A stretch of DNA of 64,000 bases, taken from positions 1 through 64,000 of the forward strand of contig NZ_JADKYY010000013.1 in assembly GCF_015354315.1 (NCBI RefSeq), written 5' to 3'. Below the pieces are notes generated by a model. The model did not search any database, was not told the origin of the DNA, and was given only the letters and a program-made list of their open reading frames with translations. Source of the DNA: Planobacterium oryzisoli (GTDB lineage Bacteria > Bacteroidota > Bacteroidia > Flavobacteriales > Weeksellaceae). Shown here one piece after another: positions 38,596 to 46,230 of the stretch; the first letter of the stretch is position 1; each line of letters opens with the position of its first letter. Made by a program: the position numbers and the translations under genes.

Positions 38596-39633
38596 CTAGG
38601 ACCTGCTGCCGAGCCATTTTTCCAGGTAGCGTTCCAAAGGACGGGGATAGGAATACCCTGCACTTTCTGTGTATGGCACTACTATGCTCTCTTCCTTCTT
38701 GCTCCACTGCTCCAGCTCCCAGGTGGAAAGAACCAGCGCATCAATCCTAATGTTAAGAACACGGTGGGAGAGTCTATGCTGGAGAATTTCTGGAGCCAGC
38801 AACCTGTCTTGGTACTTTTGTTCAATCTCTGTGGGAAATTCATACAAACGTTTCCAAATCGACTTCTCACTACGTTGCTGGATAATATAGCTCAAACCGT
38901 CGTTAACAAAGTAATACTGCATGCTAATGGTAGAGACTTTGGTCTTGCGCTGCTTTACTGGATACTCCTCCATGGTACCTCTGGAAAAGGCAAGACAGCC
39001 CTCCCGTAGTGGGCACTCGTGGCAGAGTGGTGCTAAAGGTTTGCACACCGATGCTCCTACATCCATCATGGCCTGATTAAACTCTCCAGGCCACTCCTTA
39101 GGCATTAATTTCAGGGCAAGCTCAGAAAAGATACGGTACGCACCCGAGGTAGAGATATCTACCGAGCAGAGGAAGAACCGCGCGAGTACCCGATAGAGAT
39201 TCGTATCGACCGCTGCCACAGGCTGTGAAAAAGCAATACTGCTGATTGCAGAGGCCGTATAGGGACCTACTCCTGGCAAGGATAGGATCTGCTGGTACTC
39301 AGTTGGAAAGTTACCCCCGAACTCGGCAAGAATCTTTTGTGCCGCTCGGTGCAGATTAAGGGCTCTTGAATAATAACCCAGTCCCTTCCAGTAGAGAAGA
39401 ACCTCCTCGGCACTGGCCGTGGCAAGAGACTCCACCGTGGGAAAACGCTGCACAAACCGCTCAAAATAGGGTGCACCTTGCCTGACCTGAGTCTGTTGGA
39501 GGATCACCTCACTGATCCACACCCTATAGGGATCCTTGCGTTCCCTCCACAATAGGTCACGTTGATTGGCGCGGTACCATTCGAGGAGTTTCTCGCCCCA
39601 CACCACATAACCGGGCTTTTCTAGTCCTTCCAT
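38596..39633 (-). CDS. mutY: A/G-specific adenine glycosylase MutY
   Basis: A 345-residue base-excision enzyme that removes adenine mispaired with 8-oxoguanine. Start chosen at 39633; the frame is open to 39729 but the extra 32 residues are not family-like and overlap the divergent promoter. Motifs: DLLWRERKDPYRVWISEVILQQTQV with the catalytic Glu, LPGVGPYTASAISSIAF helix-hairpin-helix, AVDTNLYRVLAR with the catalytic Asp, and the iron-sulfur loop C-x6-C-x2-C-x5-C (CKPLAPLCHECPLREGC). A C-terminal NUDIX-like 8-oxoG recognition domain follows (about 225-340). Confidence 0.95.
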   Translation of the reverse strand: MEGLEKPGYVVWGEKLLEWYRANQRDLLWRERKDPYRVWISEVILQQTQVRQGAPYFERFVQRFPTVESLATASAEEVLLYWKGLGYYSRALNLHRAAQKILAEFGGNFPTEYQQILSLPGVGPYTASAISSIAFSQPVAAVDTNLYRVLARFFLCSVDISTSGAYRIFSELALKLMPKEWPGEFNQAMMDVGASVCKPLAPLCHECPLREGCLAFSRGTMEEYPVKQRKTKVSTISMQYYFVNDGLSYIIQQRSEKSIWKRLYEFPTEIEQKYQDRLLAPEILQHRLSHRVLNIRIDALVLSTWELEQWSKKEESIVVPYTESAGYSYPRPLERYLEKWLGSRS

Positions 39634-39733
39634 ATATAAAACGCGGTAAAAGTAATCAATATCCTGTAGTGAAAAAAAATACTTAGGTGGTAAAGAGTTA
39701 TCCCGGCAGTAGGGAACAAAACGATGCAATTGG

Positions 39734-39741
39734 TATATTTG
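39734..39741 (+). promoter_or_regulatory. -7 element of the DUF4838 gene
   Basis: TATATTTG (TAnnTTTG), 23 nt before the ATG at 39765. It lies between the divergent mutY and DUF4838 starts and supports the shorter start for both. Confidence 0.5.
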
Positions 39742-39764
39742 CCTTTTGTTACAACTTAATTATA

Positions 39765-41990
39765 ATGAACCAAGAGGTTAGAAACTACATACTACCTTTT
39801 TGCCTCGTCCTTCTTACCATGCTGGTATCCCCTAGTCTTGCCGCACAGAATACAAAGATCTCCGAACCTGGAAAGGCCCTGTTTTACCTTTCCGTGGACA
39901 CCCTTGAGGAATCAGATCTGCCGCATCCGGCCTTTATACTCCAAGACTACCTCCTTCAGGTCACAGGAAATGAATTTCCGATAGTTCAAGAAACAGCCCC
40001 CAGAGCGCAAAGTATACGATTGGAACTTAACCCTAAGCCTCATGAAATGTACCGCCTTTCTGTGGGACCTGAAAAAATACTACTGCAAGCCGCATCTCTA
40101 AAGACCCTTAATAAGGCTGTATACCATTTTATCGAAGAATCGCTGGGTTGTAGAAAATGGGCTCCTGGAGAAAAGGCGCAGTGCCCCACAACTCCAGAGC
40201 TTTATATAAAAAACAGGCCTGATACTTCTTTTTCCCCTTCCTTTGCCTACCGGGACGTCTATTCGCTTGGCTACAAAGATCCCGAGTACCTGCAATGGCA
40301 CGGACTCCATACGCTCGATGAGCAGTGGGGATTGTGGGGACACTCCTACAATAAACTGGTCTCTCCCAAGCTCTTTGCTACGCATCCGCAGTGGTTCGGC
40401 CTGTACCGTGGTAAGCGACTTCCAAACCAGCTCTGTCTTACGCATCCTGGAGTGTTTCAACATGCAGTAAAGTCACTAGGTAGAATCATTGCCGACAACC
40501 CCCAGGCCCGCTACTTTTCTATTGGAGCAAACGACGATCTGGGGCATTGCGAATGTGCTGGATGCAGCGCTATAAACAAAAGAGAAGGCTCGGTATCAGG
40601 TACACTTGTGGATTTCACCAACCGCCTGGCCAGGCACTTCCCCAAAACTACTTTTTCGATTTTGGCGTATCAAGCCACTAAATTTGCTCCGCGCCACACT
40701 GCGCTGGAAAAAAATGTAGTGGTCTTTTTAAGCACTATTGACATCTACCGCTCCCGTGCGGTACCGACCGAGCGATCGGCAGCGCTATTGCGTTCCCTGC
40801 TCTTGGATTGGAAGAGTAAAGCTTCGCAGATTTTTGTATGGGATTATTACACGCAGTTCACCAACTATCTGGTGCCTTTCCCGGACGATGCGCACATTGG
40901 AGAAAATCTCGCCTACTACCAAAGCCAGGGAGCCACGGGTATTTTTGCACAGATGGCGGGAGATACCTATAACGATAGTGCAGAATTAAAGTCCTATGTC
41001 TTGGCTAAGACCCTCTGGGACGCCTCACTAAAAACCCAGGATGTACGTCGGGAATTTATCGAGGGGTACTACAGGGAGGCCGCACCTTATATAATGGAAT
41101 ACCATCAGCTTTTGCATTCGTTTGCACAAAAAAGTGGGGCGCGTCTGGACATCTATGGAAGTCCCGTTAGTCATTTTGGGGACTATTTGCATCCCACAAA
41201 CCTTACCCAGCTCCACGCATTGGTATCCAAGGCGCAGGAAGCAACTAGTGATCCAGTGGTACGTGCACGCCTGGAAAGACTCGCGCTTTCTCTGGACTAT
41301 ACCAAACTGCAACATGCCCGCATTTATGGTTTCGATGCCCATGGGCTATTTGTAAAGGACCGGAGCGGACACTACCAAATAGACCCGCAATGGAAGCCAC
41401 TCGTTGAAGGATTTGTATCCAAGGCGCAGAAGTATTCAGTGAAAGAAATTTCTGAAGGAGGTGATTCCCCTGCGGGCTACAAGGCAAAGTGGGATTATAT
41501 ATTTTCCCGTGGGGTTCCACAAAATCTTGCCCACGGAGCATCTGTCCATTTTTCTGCGCCCTGGGTGGAGGATTATCCGGCCAAACGACAGCGTACACTT
41601 ACCGATGGAATGTATGGCTTTTCTAATTTCAGTTACAATTGGCTGCTTTTCTCTCAGCATGTAACCATGACTTTGGACTTAGGGGAACGAAGGCATGTAA
41701 AAACTATCGAAACAAGTTTTCTTGAAAACCAGCGGCGATTTATTTTCCTACCGGAAAAGATCCTTTTGGAAGTCTCCTCCAATGGAAAGAACTTTGTTCC
41801 CATGGAAGGAGTGGATGGCTTTGAGGCCAGGCAGAACGCCTCGGTAGCCACCTACCTACAGCGTTTTGAGATTCATTCTAAGATCCGTTATATACGACTA
41901 ACGGCCCACCCGCTTTCCACACTTCCCAAGTTCTCTCAGCCCAGCCAAAGAAAGCCCCTGATTGCCACCGACGAGATCTGGGTTCAATAA
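39765..41990 (+). CDS. DUF4838 protein, probable secreted carbohydrate-active enzyme
   Basis: A 741-residue exported protein (signal peptide to about LAAQ, residue 27). The N-terminal 30-130 region resembles the non-catalytic alpha/beta domain before GH20/GH67 barrels (PAFILQDYLLQVTGNEFPIVQ). The middle (about 175-450) is a DUF4838 domain, a predicted TIM barrel, with HSYNKLVSPKLFATHPQWF, FSIGANDDLGHCECAGCSAIN and FVWDYYTQFTNYLVPFPD. The C-terminal 150 residues look like a discoidin-type sugar-binding module (ETSFLENQRRFIFLPEKILLEVSSNGKNF, in parts). DUF4838 proteins occur in polysaccharide loci but the reaction is not known to me. It stands alone here, about 11 kb from the mannan locus. Confidence 0.8.
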   Translation: MNQEVRNYILPFCLVLLTMLVSPSLAAQNTKISEPGKALFYLSVDTLEESDLPHPAFILQDYLLQVTGNEFPIVQETAPRAQSIRLELNPKPHEMYRLSVGPEKILLQAASLKTLNKAVYHFIEESLGCRKWAPGEKAQCPTTPELYIKNRPDTSFSPSFAYRDVYSLGYKDPEYLQWHGLHTLDEQWGLWGHSYNKLVSPKLFATHPQWFGLYRGKRLPNQLCLTHPGVFQHAVKSLGRIIADNPQARYFSIGANDDLGHCECAGCSAINKREGSVSGTLVDFTNRLARHFPKTTFSILAYQATKFAPRHTALEKNVVVFLSTIDIYRSRAVPTERSAALLRSLLLDWKSKASQIFVWDYYTQFTNYLVPFPDDAHIGENLAYYQSQGATGIFAQMAGDTYNDSAELKSYVLAKTLWDASLKTQDVRREFIEGYYREAAPYIMEYHQLLHSFAQKSGARLDIYGSPVSHFGDYLHPTNLTQLHALVSKAQEATSDPVVRARLERLALSLDYTKLQHARIYGFDAHGLFVKDRSGHYQIDPQWKPLVEGFVSKAQKYSVKEISEGGDSPAGYKAKWDYIFSRGVPQNLAHGASVHFSAPWVEDYPAKRQRTLTDGMYGFSNFSYNWLLFSQHVTMTLDLGERRHVKTIETSFLENQRRFIFLPEKILLEVSSNGKNFVPMEGVDGFEARQNASVATYLQRFEIHSKIRYIRLTAHPLSTLPKFSQPSQRKPLIATDEIWVQ

Positions 41991-42056
41991 GGAGTGGCAG
42001 GCCACCACGTCGGCACTAATCGCAAATCCACCAAGGTTAAGAAAATCAGGGATTTG

Positions 42057-42089
42057 TTTGTCAAGTTTGAAAAATAGTTATTATATTTG
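42057..42089 (+). promoter_or_regulatory. Promoter of the HU gene
   Basis: TTTG (42057-42060), 21 nt, then TATATTTG (42082-42089), 30 nt before the ATG. The intervening 128 bases after the DUF4838 stop hold no gene. Confidence 0.65.
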
Positions 42090-42118
42090 CACACCAAAAT
42101 TAAAAACAAAAAAAGGAA

Positions 42119-42409
42119 ATGACAAAGGCAGAATTGGTTAATACCATCTCTAATAAGTTGGGAACAGAAAAGAATGAAACGCAGAAGGTCATTGAGGCAT
42201 TTATGCAGGAAATCAGGACTTCAATGTATAACGGTGACAATGTTTATTTGAGAGGGTTCGGGTCTTTTATCATCAAAACAAGAGCTGCTAAAACCGGCCG
42301 TAACATTTCCAAAAATACTGCCATTGAAATACCAGCTCACAATATTCCGGCATTTAAGCCATCCAAGAGCTTCGTTGAGAAGGTGAAAAGCAAAGTAACT
42401 GTAAAATAA
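42119..42409 (+). CDS. hup: HU/IHF family DNA-binding protein
   Basis: A 96-residue nucleoid protein. It shows the HU layout: helices TKAELVNTISNKLGTEKNETQKVIEAFM (in parts, 2-30), the beta region VYLRGFGSFIIKTRAAKTGRN (about 42-62), and the DNA-clamp arm ending IPAHNIPAFKPSKSFVEKVK. It bends DNA as a dimer. The AAAGGAA upstream is A-rich with a weak Shine-Dalgarno-like core. It is followed after 36 nt by a tiny polybasic gene and then RNase G, an arrangement I believe is common in Flavobacteriia. Confidence 0.95.
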   Translation: MTKAELVNTISNKLGTEKNETQKVIEAFMQEIRTSMYNGDNVYLRGFGSFIIKTRAAKTGRNISKNTAIEIPAHNIPAFKPSKSFVEKVKSKVTVK

Positions 42410-42445
42410 AAATTAACTGAATATTAACCTTAACACATTACGACA

Positions 42446-42538
42446 ATGCCAAGCGGAAAGAAAAGAAAAAGACATAAGGTAGCGACGCACAAGAGAAAGA
42501 AAAGAAGAAGAGCTAACAGACATAAGAAGAAAAAATAA
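42446..42538 (+). CDS. 30-residue polybasic protein, possible ribosome-associated peptide
   Basis: A short frame from ATG 42446 to TAA 42538 encodes 30 residues: it begins MPSGKKRKRHKVATHKRKKR and ends in RHKKKK. About two thirds are Lys, Arg or His, with no acidic residue. Codons are used as in a real gene, an A-rich leader precedes it, and it sits between HU and the RNase G promoter. The composition resembles small ribosomal proteins such as bL34 or Thx, so binding to rRNA is likely; I recall near-identical peptides in other Flavobacteriia but cannot check. Its length is below most gene-finder cut-offs. Function unproven. Confidence 0.75.
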   Translation: MPSGKKRKRHKVATHKRKKRRRANRHKKKK

Positions 42539-42565
42539 TTTTTCCTCCAAAATATAATAATATAG

Positions 42566-42598
42566 TTGATGAACTTTATTTCATTAACTATATTTTTG
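42566..42598 (+). promoter_or_regulatory. Candidate promoter of the RNase G gene
   Basis: TTG (42566-42568), 22 nt, then TATTTTTG (42591-42598), 52 nt before the ATG at 42650. Confidence 0.5.
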
Positions 42599-42649
42599 TT
42601 TAAAGAAGTAGCTAATCTACATACTAGTCCAAAATTTAACCCAAGAGCA

Positions 42650-44206
42650 ATGAAAAAAGAACTGATCATCTCCCATCAAAAGGAGAACACGAAGATCGCG
42701 CTGCTCGAAGACGGCCGACTGTTCGAACTTCACGAAGAAGAGGACAATTCGGAATTCTCCGTCGGGGACCTCTATTTAGGACGGGTAAAAAAACTGGCAC
42801 CCAACCTCAATGCGGCTTTTGTAAACATCGGTTACGAAAAAGACGCATTCTTACACTATCAGGACCTGGGACCTGATTTTCTAAGTTATCAGAAATTCCT
42901 CAAGGACACTTTCTCCAAAAGGCAGAATTCCTCCTCGATGAAGAACTTCCCAGTACAGAAGGAAATCGACAAGAACGGCTCGGTGGATAAAGTACTTTCC
43001 AAGGACGATGTGGTACTGATCCAGATCACCAAGGAACCCATCTCCACCAAAGGCCCGAGGATTTCCACCCAAATATCATTAACCGGAAGGTTTTTGGTAC
43101 TCATCCCATTCGACAACAAGGTCTCTATCTCCAAGAAAATACGGAGCGCAGAAGACCGTGAGCGCCTAAAGACGCTCATTGAAAGTATTAAGCCGGAAGG
43201 CTTTGGTGTGATCATCCGCACCGTTGCCGAAGGCAAAAAAGTAGCCGAGCTGCACAACGATATGAACCAGCTGGTACAGAAATGGGAAAGTACCTTTAAA
43301 AACATCCAGAAGCAAAAGGTACCCTCCAAGGTACTGAGCGAAGAAGACCGGGCATCGGCCATACTACGTGATAATTTCAATCAGGATTTCACAAGCATCA
43401 TCTGCGATGATGAGTCCATGGTAGAGGATATCACCAGCTACGTAGAAGTCATTGCGCCAGAAAGAAAAAACATAGTGCAGTACCACAATTCCCATATTCC
43501 ACTGATGGAATACTACAATGTGGAGAAGCAGCTAAAACAGAGTTTCGGTAAACACGTGAACATTCCAAGTTCCAAGGGAGCGTATTTGGTGATCGAACAC
43601 ACCGAAGCATTGCACGTGGTGGACGTGAACTCCGGACCCAATCTAGGCAGTGGAACTTCCTCACGTGACCACGCACTTACTGTAAACAAACTTGCCGCTA
43701 CCGAAATCGCAAGGCAGCTACGCCTGCGTGACATGGGCGGCATCATTGTGGTGGATTTCATTGACATGGTTAATGCCGAGCACCGCAAGGCACTCTACGA
43801 ACATTTCCGCGACGAAATGAAGCGCGATAAAGCGCGCCATAAGATTCTGCCTCCAAGTAAATTTGGATTGATACAGATGACCCGTCAGCGGGTACGTCCA
43901 GAAAAACAAATTGAAACCACAGAGGAAAATCCCAATGCCGACGGAGAGATCCTTGCCCCTATTGTAGTGGTAGAGCGTATGGAAGAGGTGATTAGAGGAA
44001 TCATCCAAAAAGAGAAAGGCAAAATATTTCTCCATGTCCATCCCTTCGTAGAAGCCTACCTGAGCAAAGGACTTATGAGCATTCAAACCAAGTGGTATAT
44101 CAAGTACAAAAAGTGGGTAACTATTATCCCTAGAGACAGTTTCCGTTACTTGGAATACCGACTCTACAATTCAAAAAAAGAGGAACTTGCCAGTTACTCG
44201 AACTAA
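42650..44206 (+). CDS. rng: Ribonuclease E/G family endoribonuclease
   Basis: A 518-residue RNase G-type enzyme that matures 16S rRNA 5' ends and starts mRNA decay. The start at 42650 (MKKELIISHQKENTKIALLE) is family-typical; the frame upstream to 42566 covers the promoter. Seen are the S1 domain (LGRVKKLAPNLNAAFVNIGYEKDAFLHYQDL, in parts, about 40-75), the RNase H/DNase-like core with VVDVNSGPN and GGIIVVDFIDM supplying the catalytic aspartates, and the RQRVRP segment. It has a longer linker after S1 than E. coli RNase G, a feature of Bacteroidota. A terminator lies at 44231-44257. Confidence 0.95.
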   Translation: MKKELIISHQKENTKIALLEDGRLFELHEEEDNSEFSVGDLYLGRVKKLAPNLNAAFVNIGYEKDAFLHYQDLGPDFLSYQKFLKDTFSKRQNSSSMKNFPVQKEIDKNGSVDKVLSKDDVVLIQITKEPISTKGPRISTQISLTGRFLVLIPFDNKVSISKKIRSAEDRERLKTLIESIKPEGFGVIIRTVAEGKKVAELHNDMNQLVQKWESTFKNIQKQKVPSKVLSEEDRASAILRDNFNQDFTSIICDDESMVEDITSYVEVIAPERKNIVQYHNSHIPLMEYYNVEKQLKQSFGKHVNIPSSKGAYLVIEHTEALHVVDVNSGPNLGSGTSSRDHALTVNKLAATEIARQLRLRDMGGIIVVDFIDMVNAEHRKALYEHFRDEMKRDKARHKILPPSKFGLIQMTRQRVRPEKQIETTEENPNADGEILAPIVVVERMEEVIRGIIQKEKGKIFLHVHPFVEAYLSKGLMSIQTKWYIKYKKWVTIIPRDSFRYLEYRLYNSKKEELASYSN

Positions 44207-44230
44207 AAATAGGCCACAGCGCCCCATTGA

Positions 44231-44257
44231 AACTTCCTCATTCGAGGGAGTTTTTTT
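44231..44257 (+). terminator. Terminator of the RNase G gene
   Basis: AACTTCCTC (44231-44239) pairs with GAGGGAGTT (44244-44252, one G-U pair), followed by a run of seven T. Confidence 0.85.
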
Positions 44258-44304
44258 ATGCTTTCTTAACAGAGCAAGGCAGTGAAATTTCCCGTAAAAA
44301 CCCT

Positions 44305-44312
44305 TACTTTTG
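44305..44312 (+). promoter_or_regulatory. -7 element just before the nudix gene (leaderless start)
   Basis: TACTTTTG (TAnnTTTG) ends 5 nt before the ATG at 44318. If used, the mRNA begins at or next to the start codon. Confidence 0.45.
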
Positions 44313-44317
44313 TTACT

Positions 44318-44947
44318 ATGACGGTATTTGGAAGAGATCTTTTGAAGAAAATACAGTGCGCCACTCTTAAGGGAGAACAGGCCCATGCCATCTACTCCCC
44401 ACCCTACCGACCACTGTTTACGTACGAGGAAATACTCCAGCGCAATCCGCGGTTTGCTGCAGTCAATATCCTGCTCTATTTGAAAGACGGAGAATGGCAC
44501 TTTCCCCTCATGGTCCGCACCCACAATGAGAACGACAGACACAGCGGGCAGATTTCACTGCCTGGAGGAAGCCGCGAACCTTTGGACCAATCTTTTGGAC
44601 AGACTGCGCGCAGGGAAACTTCTGAGGAAATGGGAATCCACCCCAATTACATCCGACTGATCCGTCCGATCTCACCTATCTACATACCTCCCAGTAACTT
44701 TTATGTGCATCCCTTCATATCGTATACCGGTAAGAATCCCCAATTTACCCTGCAGGAATCCGAAGCCAAGGAGCTTATTGAATTTCCGGTCCGCTCCATT
44801 CTCTCACTTCAGGAAGCACCACAAATGCGCACTCTTGCGCAAAGCAGAGGACACGAAGTACCTGTCATTGAATTTCAGGGACACTTGATTTGGGGCGCCA
44901 CTTCAATGATCCTAAGTGAGTTTAGGGACTTGCTGAAAAATTTGTAA
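44318..44947 (+). CDS. NUDIX hydrolase, CoA pyrophosphatase type
   Basis: A 209-residue cytosolic hydrolase. The LMVRTHNENDRHSGQISLPGG stretch (in parts) is the UPF0035/NudL signature that marks coenzyme A pyrophosphatases, and REPLDQSFGQTARRETSEEMGI is the nudix box with the metal-binding RExxEExG core. It would split CoA or acyl-CoA to 3',5'-ADP and phosphopantetheine. The start at 44318 (MTVFGRDLLKKI) is chosen because relatives begin with a similar helix and because a promoter element overlaps the longer frame that starts at 44282. It heads a group with an acyltransferase 27 nt downstream. Confidence 0.9.
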   Translation: MTVFGRDLLKKIQCATLKGEQAHAIYSPPYRPLFTYEEILQRNPRFAAVNILLYLKDGEWHFPLMVRTHNENDRHSGQISLPGGSREPLDQSFGQTARRETSEEMGIHPNYIRLIRPISPIYIPPSNFYVHPFISYTGKNPQFTLQESEAKELIEFPVRSILSLQEAPQMRTLAQSRGHEVPVIEFQGHLIWGATSMILSEFRDLLKNL

Positions 44948-44974
44948 ATTCGCACGATTAATGCAATGTGAATA

Positions 44975-45784
44975 ATGGCGAAGAAAACGATTTTTGCAGA
45001 TGCCTTCGGCACGCCCTACTTCTTGAAGCGGTTTATCATCTTTCTGCTGGGCATCGTTTCCTACCGGCGGTTTAATGGCTTTAATAAACTAAAGATATCA
45101 GGCACCCACCACCTTAAAGATCTGCCGGACTCCAATGTACTGTTTGTTTCCAACCACCAAACCTATTTTGCGGATGTGGCAGCCATGTACCATGTCTTCT
45201 TTGCGGTAAACAACGGCTACTACGACACGATCAAAAACCCCGTCTACCTCTTGAATCCCCGCGTGGACTTTTACTACGTAGCTGCAGAAGAAACCATGAA
45301 CAAAGGACTGCTTTCGCGTATTTTTAAACTCGCTGGTGCCGTTACAGTAAAAAGAACCTGGAGGGAGAAGGGACAGAACGTGAACCGTATGGTGGATATG
45401 AGCGAAGTGGACAATATAATGAAAGCTTTGGATAACGGTTGGGTCATTACCTTTCCCCAAGGCACCACTTCAGCCTTCGCCCAGGGAAGAAAAGGTACAG
45501 CAAAGCTGGTTAAACAGCAGCGTCCTATCGTAGTACCCATAAAGATTAACGGATTTCGCCGCGCTTTTGACAAAAAAGGACTTAAGATAAAAGTTACGGG
45601 CGTGAAACCTACCATGGAGTTTAAAGCGCCCTTAACCATTGATTACGACGACGACAGTGCTCAGGATATCCTACAAAAGATCATGGTGGCTATTGAACAG
45701 ACTCCTGACTTTAATGTCCTGTACGAATACGACGAGGAATTAAAGGCCCGTACCGAGGTACAAGTTCCCGAAAAAAACATCTAA
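44975..45784 (+). CDS. Lysophospholipid acyltransferase family (PlsC-like)
   Basis: A 269-residue membrane-associated acyltransferase, probably adding an acyl chain to lysophosphatidic acid or another lipid head. A hydrophobic helix lies near 17-30. Block I is VSNHQTYFADVAAM: the catalytic pair is His-x5-Asp instead of the usual His-x4-Asp. Block III reads TFPQGTTSAF where FPEGTRS is typical. VPIKINGFRRAF is block IV. These variants are conserved-looking rather than decayed. A pair of small genes follows at 5- and 7-nt gaps, so all four genes from the nudix gene on form one operon. Confidence 0.86.
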   Translation: MAKKTIFADAFGTPYFLKRFIIFLLGIVSYRRFNGFNKLKISGTHHLKDLPDSNVLFVSNHQTYFADVAAMYHVFFAVNNGYYDTIKNPVYLLNPRVDFYYVAAEETMNKGLLSRIFKLAGAVTVKRTWREKGQNVNRMVDMSEVDNIMKALDNGWVITFPQGTTSAFAQGRKGTAKLVKQQRPIVVPIKINGFRRAFDKKGLKIKVTGVKPTMEFKAPLTIDYDDDSAQDILQKIMVAIEQTPDFNVLYEYDEELKARTEVQVPEKNI

Positions 45785-45789
45785 TTCTT

Positions 45790-46230
45790 ATGAAAAGACT
45801 TCTTTTACTCCTTATTGCTGTACTGGGCCTTACCGGCTGCAGCTCACACAAAATATTTGAAGAATACGATATCAGTTATAGCCGCAGCGGTGGTCTTGCA
45901 CCTATCTACGAGAATATGCTGATTAAAGGGCAGACCGTGCATTATTTTTATGAGGGGCACGGAAAGAAATACAACAAAAAAAGCACCTTGTCTCAGAAAG
46001 AGAAAACGGCGCTTTACCAAGCCATCGAGTCCAACAAACTCTCCACCATACGGGAAGACTACAAAAAGGTGTACGACCATATTACCACCACGGTAAAAGT
46101 ACGCACGCCTAGAGAGGATATCTACAAAAACGACGGGAGTTTCATCATGCCTCAGGACCAGAAAAGGTGGGAAAACATCGTCGGTGCTTTTGAGGCATTG
46201 GTAGAGGAAAAAAACCTTCGTACTCCATAA
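45790..46230 (+). CDS. Small lipoprotein of unknown function
   Basis: A 146-residue lipoprotein: signal peptide MKRLLLLLIAVLGLTGC with Cys17, then a soluble domain with YDISYSRSGGLAPIYENMLI, GKKYNKKSTLSQKEKTALYQ and TTVKVRTPREDIYKNDGS. I do not recognise the family; the SQKEKTALYQAIESNKLSTI helix and the sheet-like C terminus suggest a compact alpha/beta fold. It is cotranscribed with an acyltransferase and the Mur-ligase-like gene, so a cell-envelope role is possible. The cysteine is followed by SSHKIF, without the acidic surface-export pattern. Confidence 0.78.
   Translation: MKRLLLLLIAVLGLTGCSSHKIFEEYDISYSRSGGLAPIYENMLIKGQTVHYFYEGHGKKYNKKSTLSQKEKTALYQAIESNKLSTIREDYKKVYDHITTTVKVRTPREDIYKNDGSFIMPQDQKRWENIVGAFEALVEEKNLRTP

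Follow-up and report, generated by a model that had tools for sequence, protein, structure and literature searches.

A 30-residue gene between HU and RNase G in Planobacterium oryzisoli very probably encodes ribosomal protein bS22

The locus and its open reading frame

The stretch of DNA that we analysed, hereafter the window, covers 64,000 nucleotides of the genome of Planobacterium oryzisoli (contig NZ_JADKYY010000013.1). It contains a very short gene lying on the same strand as two longer neighbors, which encode an HU-family DNA-binding protein and an RNase E/G family ribonuclease, here called RNase G (Table 1). The short frame translates as MPSGKKRKRHKVATHKRKKRRRANRHKKKK. A preliminary description, made from the sequence alone, had pointed to a Lys/Arg/His-rich peptide without acidic residues between HU and RNase G, and both observations hold: 21 of the 30 residues are K, R, or H and none is D or E, with PF00216 matched upstream and PF10150 downstream, at gaps of 36 nt (HU stop to short-gene ATG) and 111 nt (its stop to the RNase G ATG). 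Both strands of the window together hold 381 ATG-started frames of at least 25 codons, and no other frame among them combines a K/R/H share of 50% or more with a lack of D/E. When the window was simulated 100 times with a first-order Markov model, no such frame arose; the polybasic frame is therefore not due to chance. No Shine-Dalgarno-like sequence precedes its ATG, around which there is hardly any structure (MFE -0.5), a combination that is expected in Bacteroidota according to passages of PMC6847099.

Table 1. Features at the HU-bS22-RNase G locus, in window coordinates.
Feature	Position	Strand	Basis and remarks
Promoter-like site, Bacteroidota type	42058..42089	+	TTG (42058) and TAnnTTTG box TATATTTG (42082-42089); box starts 37 nt before HU ATG
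HU-family DNA-binding protein, opening the proposed HU-bS22 unit	42119..42409	+	PF00216, E 9e-28; linkage
HU-bS22 spacer, 36 nt	42410..42445	+	Little structure around start codon; no promoter box
bS22, 30S ribosomal protein, 30 aa (very probable)	42446..42538	+	ATG..TAA; PDB matches, conservation, composition
A+T-rich hairpin after bS22, probable terminator	42554..42599	+	MFE -18.2 for 42539-42649, z -3.3
Promoter-like box before RNase G, TATTTTTG	42591-42598	+	Overlapped by 3' arm of hairpin 42554-42599
RNase E/G family ribonuclease (RNase G), probably transcribed separately	42650..44206	+	PF10150, E 4e-96; TIGR00757 above cut-off

Identity of the gene product

A phmmer search of the PDB with the 30-residue peptide (E <= 10) matched three sequences. 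The closest, 7jil chain 5 (E 2.8e-11), has the same length and differs only at position 21, where it carries alanine and the P. oryzisoli peptide arginine; five PDB entries share its sequence. We take 7jil to be the 70S ribosome of Flavobacterium johnsoniae, in agreement with published descriptions of bS22 from this species. The other matches were 9i5v chain 10, named 'AURKAIP1/COX24 domain-containing protein' (E 1.9e-8), and 8fmw chain V, named '30S ribosomal protein bS22' (E 2.4e-6), from the 70S ribosome of Borrelia burgdorferi. The Borrelia protein belongs to another phylum and has 28 residues in its PDB chain, over which it is 71% identical to the peptide; a THKRKK..NRHKK core is common to both, and this core within a short, highly basic chain places the P. 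oryzisoli protein in the Bacteroidota/Spirochaete type of bS22. Its start codon is given as GUG in a passage of PMC10618245, compared to ATG in P. oryzisoli.

The peptide thus matches at full length two chains modelled as bS22 (7jil chain 5 at 97% and 8fmw chain V at 71% identity). Because a near-identical chain is modelled in a flavobacterial 70S ribosome, we identify the gene at 42446-42538 as that of ribosomal protein bS22, with a probability of about 97%. The earlier suggestion of a small ribosomal or rRNA-binding protein is borne out by this identity at 29 of 30 residues. The density in flavobacterial ribosome structures, which the preliminary description had supposed might be unassigned, has already been given to bS22 as 7jil chain 5. 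Its further proposal, that the protein would be specific to Bacteroidota, fails against the Borrelia homolog and against the filling of the same pocket in mycobacteria and Cutibacterium, as described in parts of PMC10618245 and PMC10085706. bS22 is a well-conserved and already described ribosomal protein, not a new one, and what looked like an overlooked reading frame is settled as a named structural component of the ribosome.

A profile built from 19 aligned relatives, Borrelia among them, with 13 invariant columns, again matched 7jil, 9i5v, and 8fmw in the PDB and nothing more at E <= 10; since 7jil and 8fmw had been used in building this profile, 9i5v is the sole independent match. The peptide had no match in Pfam, NCBIfam, or PHROGs, and it is useful to know that three profile libraries miss this protein. 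Relatives of bS22 (9i5v and the protein of Cutibacterium acnes) bear the name 'AURKAIP1/COX24 domain-containing protein'. COX24_C (PF08213) matched neither the window protein nor any other protein of its genome, and stayed short of its cut-off in two of the 19 bS22 relatives (best E 0.099). Similarly, mitochondrial mS38 (AURKAIP1/Cox24), which is longer, and eukaryotic eL41 have no significant sequence match to this bS22. Both are described in a passage of PMC10618245 as analogs at an equivalent site, and mS38 runs along h44 according to part of PMC6582356; we do not claim common descent of either with bS22. The 19-row profile likewise did not match actinobacterial bS22 at E <= 10, which is weak evidence for so short a chain, and the relation to the actinobacterial protein rests on a shared position in published structures.

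The PDB pools two names for the identical 30-residue sequence, 30S ribosomal protein S22 and 50S ribosomal protein L38, so that the product might instead be read as the large-subunit protein bL38. This is very improbable. Passages of PMC10618245 distinguish two proteins in F. johnsoniae, bS22 and bL38, and describe the latter as a 50S protein with beta-strands, which a 30-residue K/R/H chain would be unlikely to fit. In the same passages, Borrelia bL38 contacts H95/H97, uL6, and uL14 at a place similar to that of F. johnsoniae bL38, beyond which it has a third beta-strand, and a translated search for F. johnsoniae bL38 in Borrelia is stated to have found nothing; yet Borrelia bS22 (8fmw chain V) matches the window peptide. 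The L38 label on the 7jil chain 5 sequence is probably a labelling slip, and we retain bS22 as the identity of the protein.

Position on the ribosome and proposed role

In the structures of its relatives, bS22 forms a bent helix, short and highly basic, that sits in a pocket of the 16S rRNA, and its contact with 23S rRNA (H68 in Borrelia, H67 in Cutibacterium) forms an extra intersubunit bridge, as passages of PMC10618245 and PMC10085706 describe. According to the former, Borrelia bS22 occupies a pocket of h2/h27/h44/h45, meets H68 of the 23S rRNA, shares this pocket with F. johnsoniae bS22, and is closer to that protein than to the mycobacterial one. According to the latter, the 33-residue bS22 of C. 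acnes lies between h27, h44, and h45, touches H67, and is 37% identical to that of F. johnsoniae, whose structure is noted there to contain bS22. For mycobacteria and C. acnes, the passages of PMC10085706 place a basic helix in the same rRNA pocket. By analogy with these structures, bS22 of P. oryzisoli would neutralize rRNA phosphates in the 16S pocket, may steady h44, the neck, and the decoding region, and could help to keep the 70S ribosome together.

A cationic peptide of this kind could also be imagined to do its main work off the ribosome, as a free nucleic-acid-binding or antimicrobial-like peptide made together with HU. Its probable co-transcription with HU would suit such a role, as would the report, in part of PMC10085706, that C. 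acnes bS22 peptide, in vitro, was inhibitory to an E. coli cell-free system as well as to the growth of other bacteria. Those growth tests, however, were disk assays with added peptide (PMC10085706, same part), the structures model bS22 as a component of the ribosome, and extreme residue conservation would fit a fixed rRNA site, so that we find a free peptide hardly credible next to the ribosomal protein bS22.

Conservation and spread

The frame occurs in 39 of the 40 near genomes, including that of the window; the single miss is an assembly that is 80% complete and in 460 contigs. In a profile search of the phylum, 290 of 296 sampled genomes, again with the window's own, encode bS22, the query profile (A1) having included the window peptide along with its three PDB matches. 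The presence of bS22 across the sampled phylum is nearly universal. Within the family of the window, pS was 0.60 and pN 0.029, a ratio of 0.05 (276 pairs among 24 loci including the window's own, first 28 codons), while across all 39 loci pS was 0.76, which is near saturation, and pN 0.083. Strong purifying selection acts on this frame. A fortuitous open frame within an untranslated leader or terminator RNA, for which the shortness of the gene and the lack of matches in three libraries might speak, is vanishingly improbable, and is refuted in practice by the pN/pS of 0.05, together with the presence of the frame in nearly every near genome and the fact that the other two frames of the same strand are open in just 14 and 3 of the 39 loci. 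In addition, a search of 39000-46000 against Rfam at E <= 1 gave nothing, and there is thus no known leader RNA at the locus.

A separate observation concerns a genome consisting of one contig of 344,793 bases, probably that of a reduced symbiont, which has kept bS22 (L029:1501-1587, 83% identical) beside RNase G; no HU was found at this locus.

Gene order and proposed transcription units

bS22 usually travels with HU, a linkage worth knowing. HU lies upstream of bS22 in 38 of the 39 near loci (34 within 125 nt and four at 500-541 nt), RNase G lies downstream in 38, and the complete order HU-bS22-RNase G is found in 37, the window included. Among named loci fetched through RNase G, the tight three-gene order is present in 69 of 72, a set that has some contigs in common with the 39 loci and is not independent of them. 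HU is about 0.8-0.9 kb upstream in L108 and L110 (Cytophagales and Saprospiraceae MAGs), and neither HU nor RNase G occurs within the 6.5 kb of L095. The bS22 match of the L095 genome (G333, at C137:42925-43011) has the same place as in G004, the genome of L010, so that G333 and G004 appear to be a single genome; at L010, HU and bS22 adjoin and RNase G is elsewhere. RNase G is also more than 65 kb from bS22 in three genomes (G117, G187, and G286). At seven more distant loci (L126-L132), the list of open reading frames gives an HU-like frame just upstream of bS22 in five (L126, L127, L128, L129, and L131).

The promoter consensus of Bacteroidota is TAnnTTTG. Two of the 71 loci, in which HU is distant, were left out; in all 69 named loci tested, this box was present in the 120 nt upstream of HU, compared to 8.8 expected from dinucleotide shuffles, and in 66 loci it starts at -36 or -37. 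The HU-bS22 spacer holds a box in one of 70 loci, with 0.5 of 69 expected in the spacer alone, so that absence there is what chance gives; in HU coding sequence and spacer together there were 2 in 69 against 8.5 expected. In 59 of 71 loci, against 12.1 expected, the gap between bS22 and RNase G carries such a box. Moreover, folding of the 90 nt after the bS22 stop gave z <= -2 for 69 of the 71 relatives (median -4.6, 30 shuffles each), compared to 2 of 71 for the 90 nt before the bS22 ATG. A simple terminator scan of the window, which requires G-C pairs, did not list the hairpin at 42554-42599.

These sequence signals suggest that HU and bS22 form one transcription unit closed by bS22, and that RNase G has a promoter of its own. 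A two-gene mRNA would start at the HU promoter and end at the hairpin after bS22, with RNase G presumably transcribed separately. We judged it unlikely that RNase G is the third gene of a single operon; two units are preferred because of the hairpin after bS22, the frequent box before RNase G, and the arrangement at L010. The literature that we consulted, which was not targeted at operon structure, made no mention of an HU-bS22 unit or of natural losses of bS22, and we do not claim that either is unpublished.

Genomes without bS22

Six of the 296 phylum genomes had no bS22 match, also with the 19-row profile at E <= 10. Within one genus (g116), no match was found in 7 of 12 genomes, each at least 97% complete. 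At three of these non-carrier loci (L133-L135), the HU ortholog is kept at 91-95% identity and pieces of the neighboring genes are recognizable by eye, with no polybasic frame of at least 20 codons in the 900 nt after HU. In a second genus (g136), all three sampled genomes (G183, G231, and G235) lacked a match, and another open reading frame follows HU. As these non-carriers show, the bS22 gene can be lost and is not indispensable everywhere, and such natural losses offer a ready comparison for studies of bS22 function. One might go further and picture bS22 as a dispensable, tunable subunit of the Bacteroidota ribosome, its supply coupled to HU by a common mRNA, such that bS22-containing and bS22-free ribosomes could occur in a ratio following nucleoid or growth state and some lineages dropped the gene; we regard this extended scheme as unlikely.

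The 16S rRNA of one non-carrier (L147) was compared with those of two carriers of the same genus (L148 and L149); the other three genomes searched alongside gave no 16S match. In 22 of 1552 columns the carriers agree and the non-carrier differs. With the columns assigned to helices as we take them to be, the h27 stretch that was printed, h45, and the anti-Shine-Dalgarno sequence are unchanged by eye, and four columns differ in h44, which is a wall of the bS22 pocket. Resting on three sequences, these differences neither support nor exclude a link to the loss of bS22.

At the two remaining distant loci, L130 and L132, a zinc-ribbon-like frame (CPSC..C..C, by eye) stands upstream of bS22 in place of HU, and a similar frame comes after HU in genus g136.
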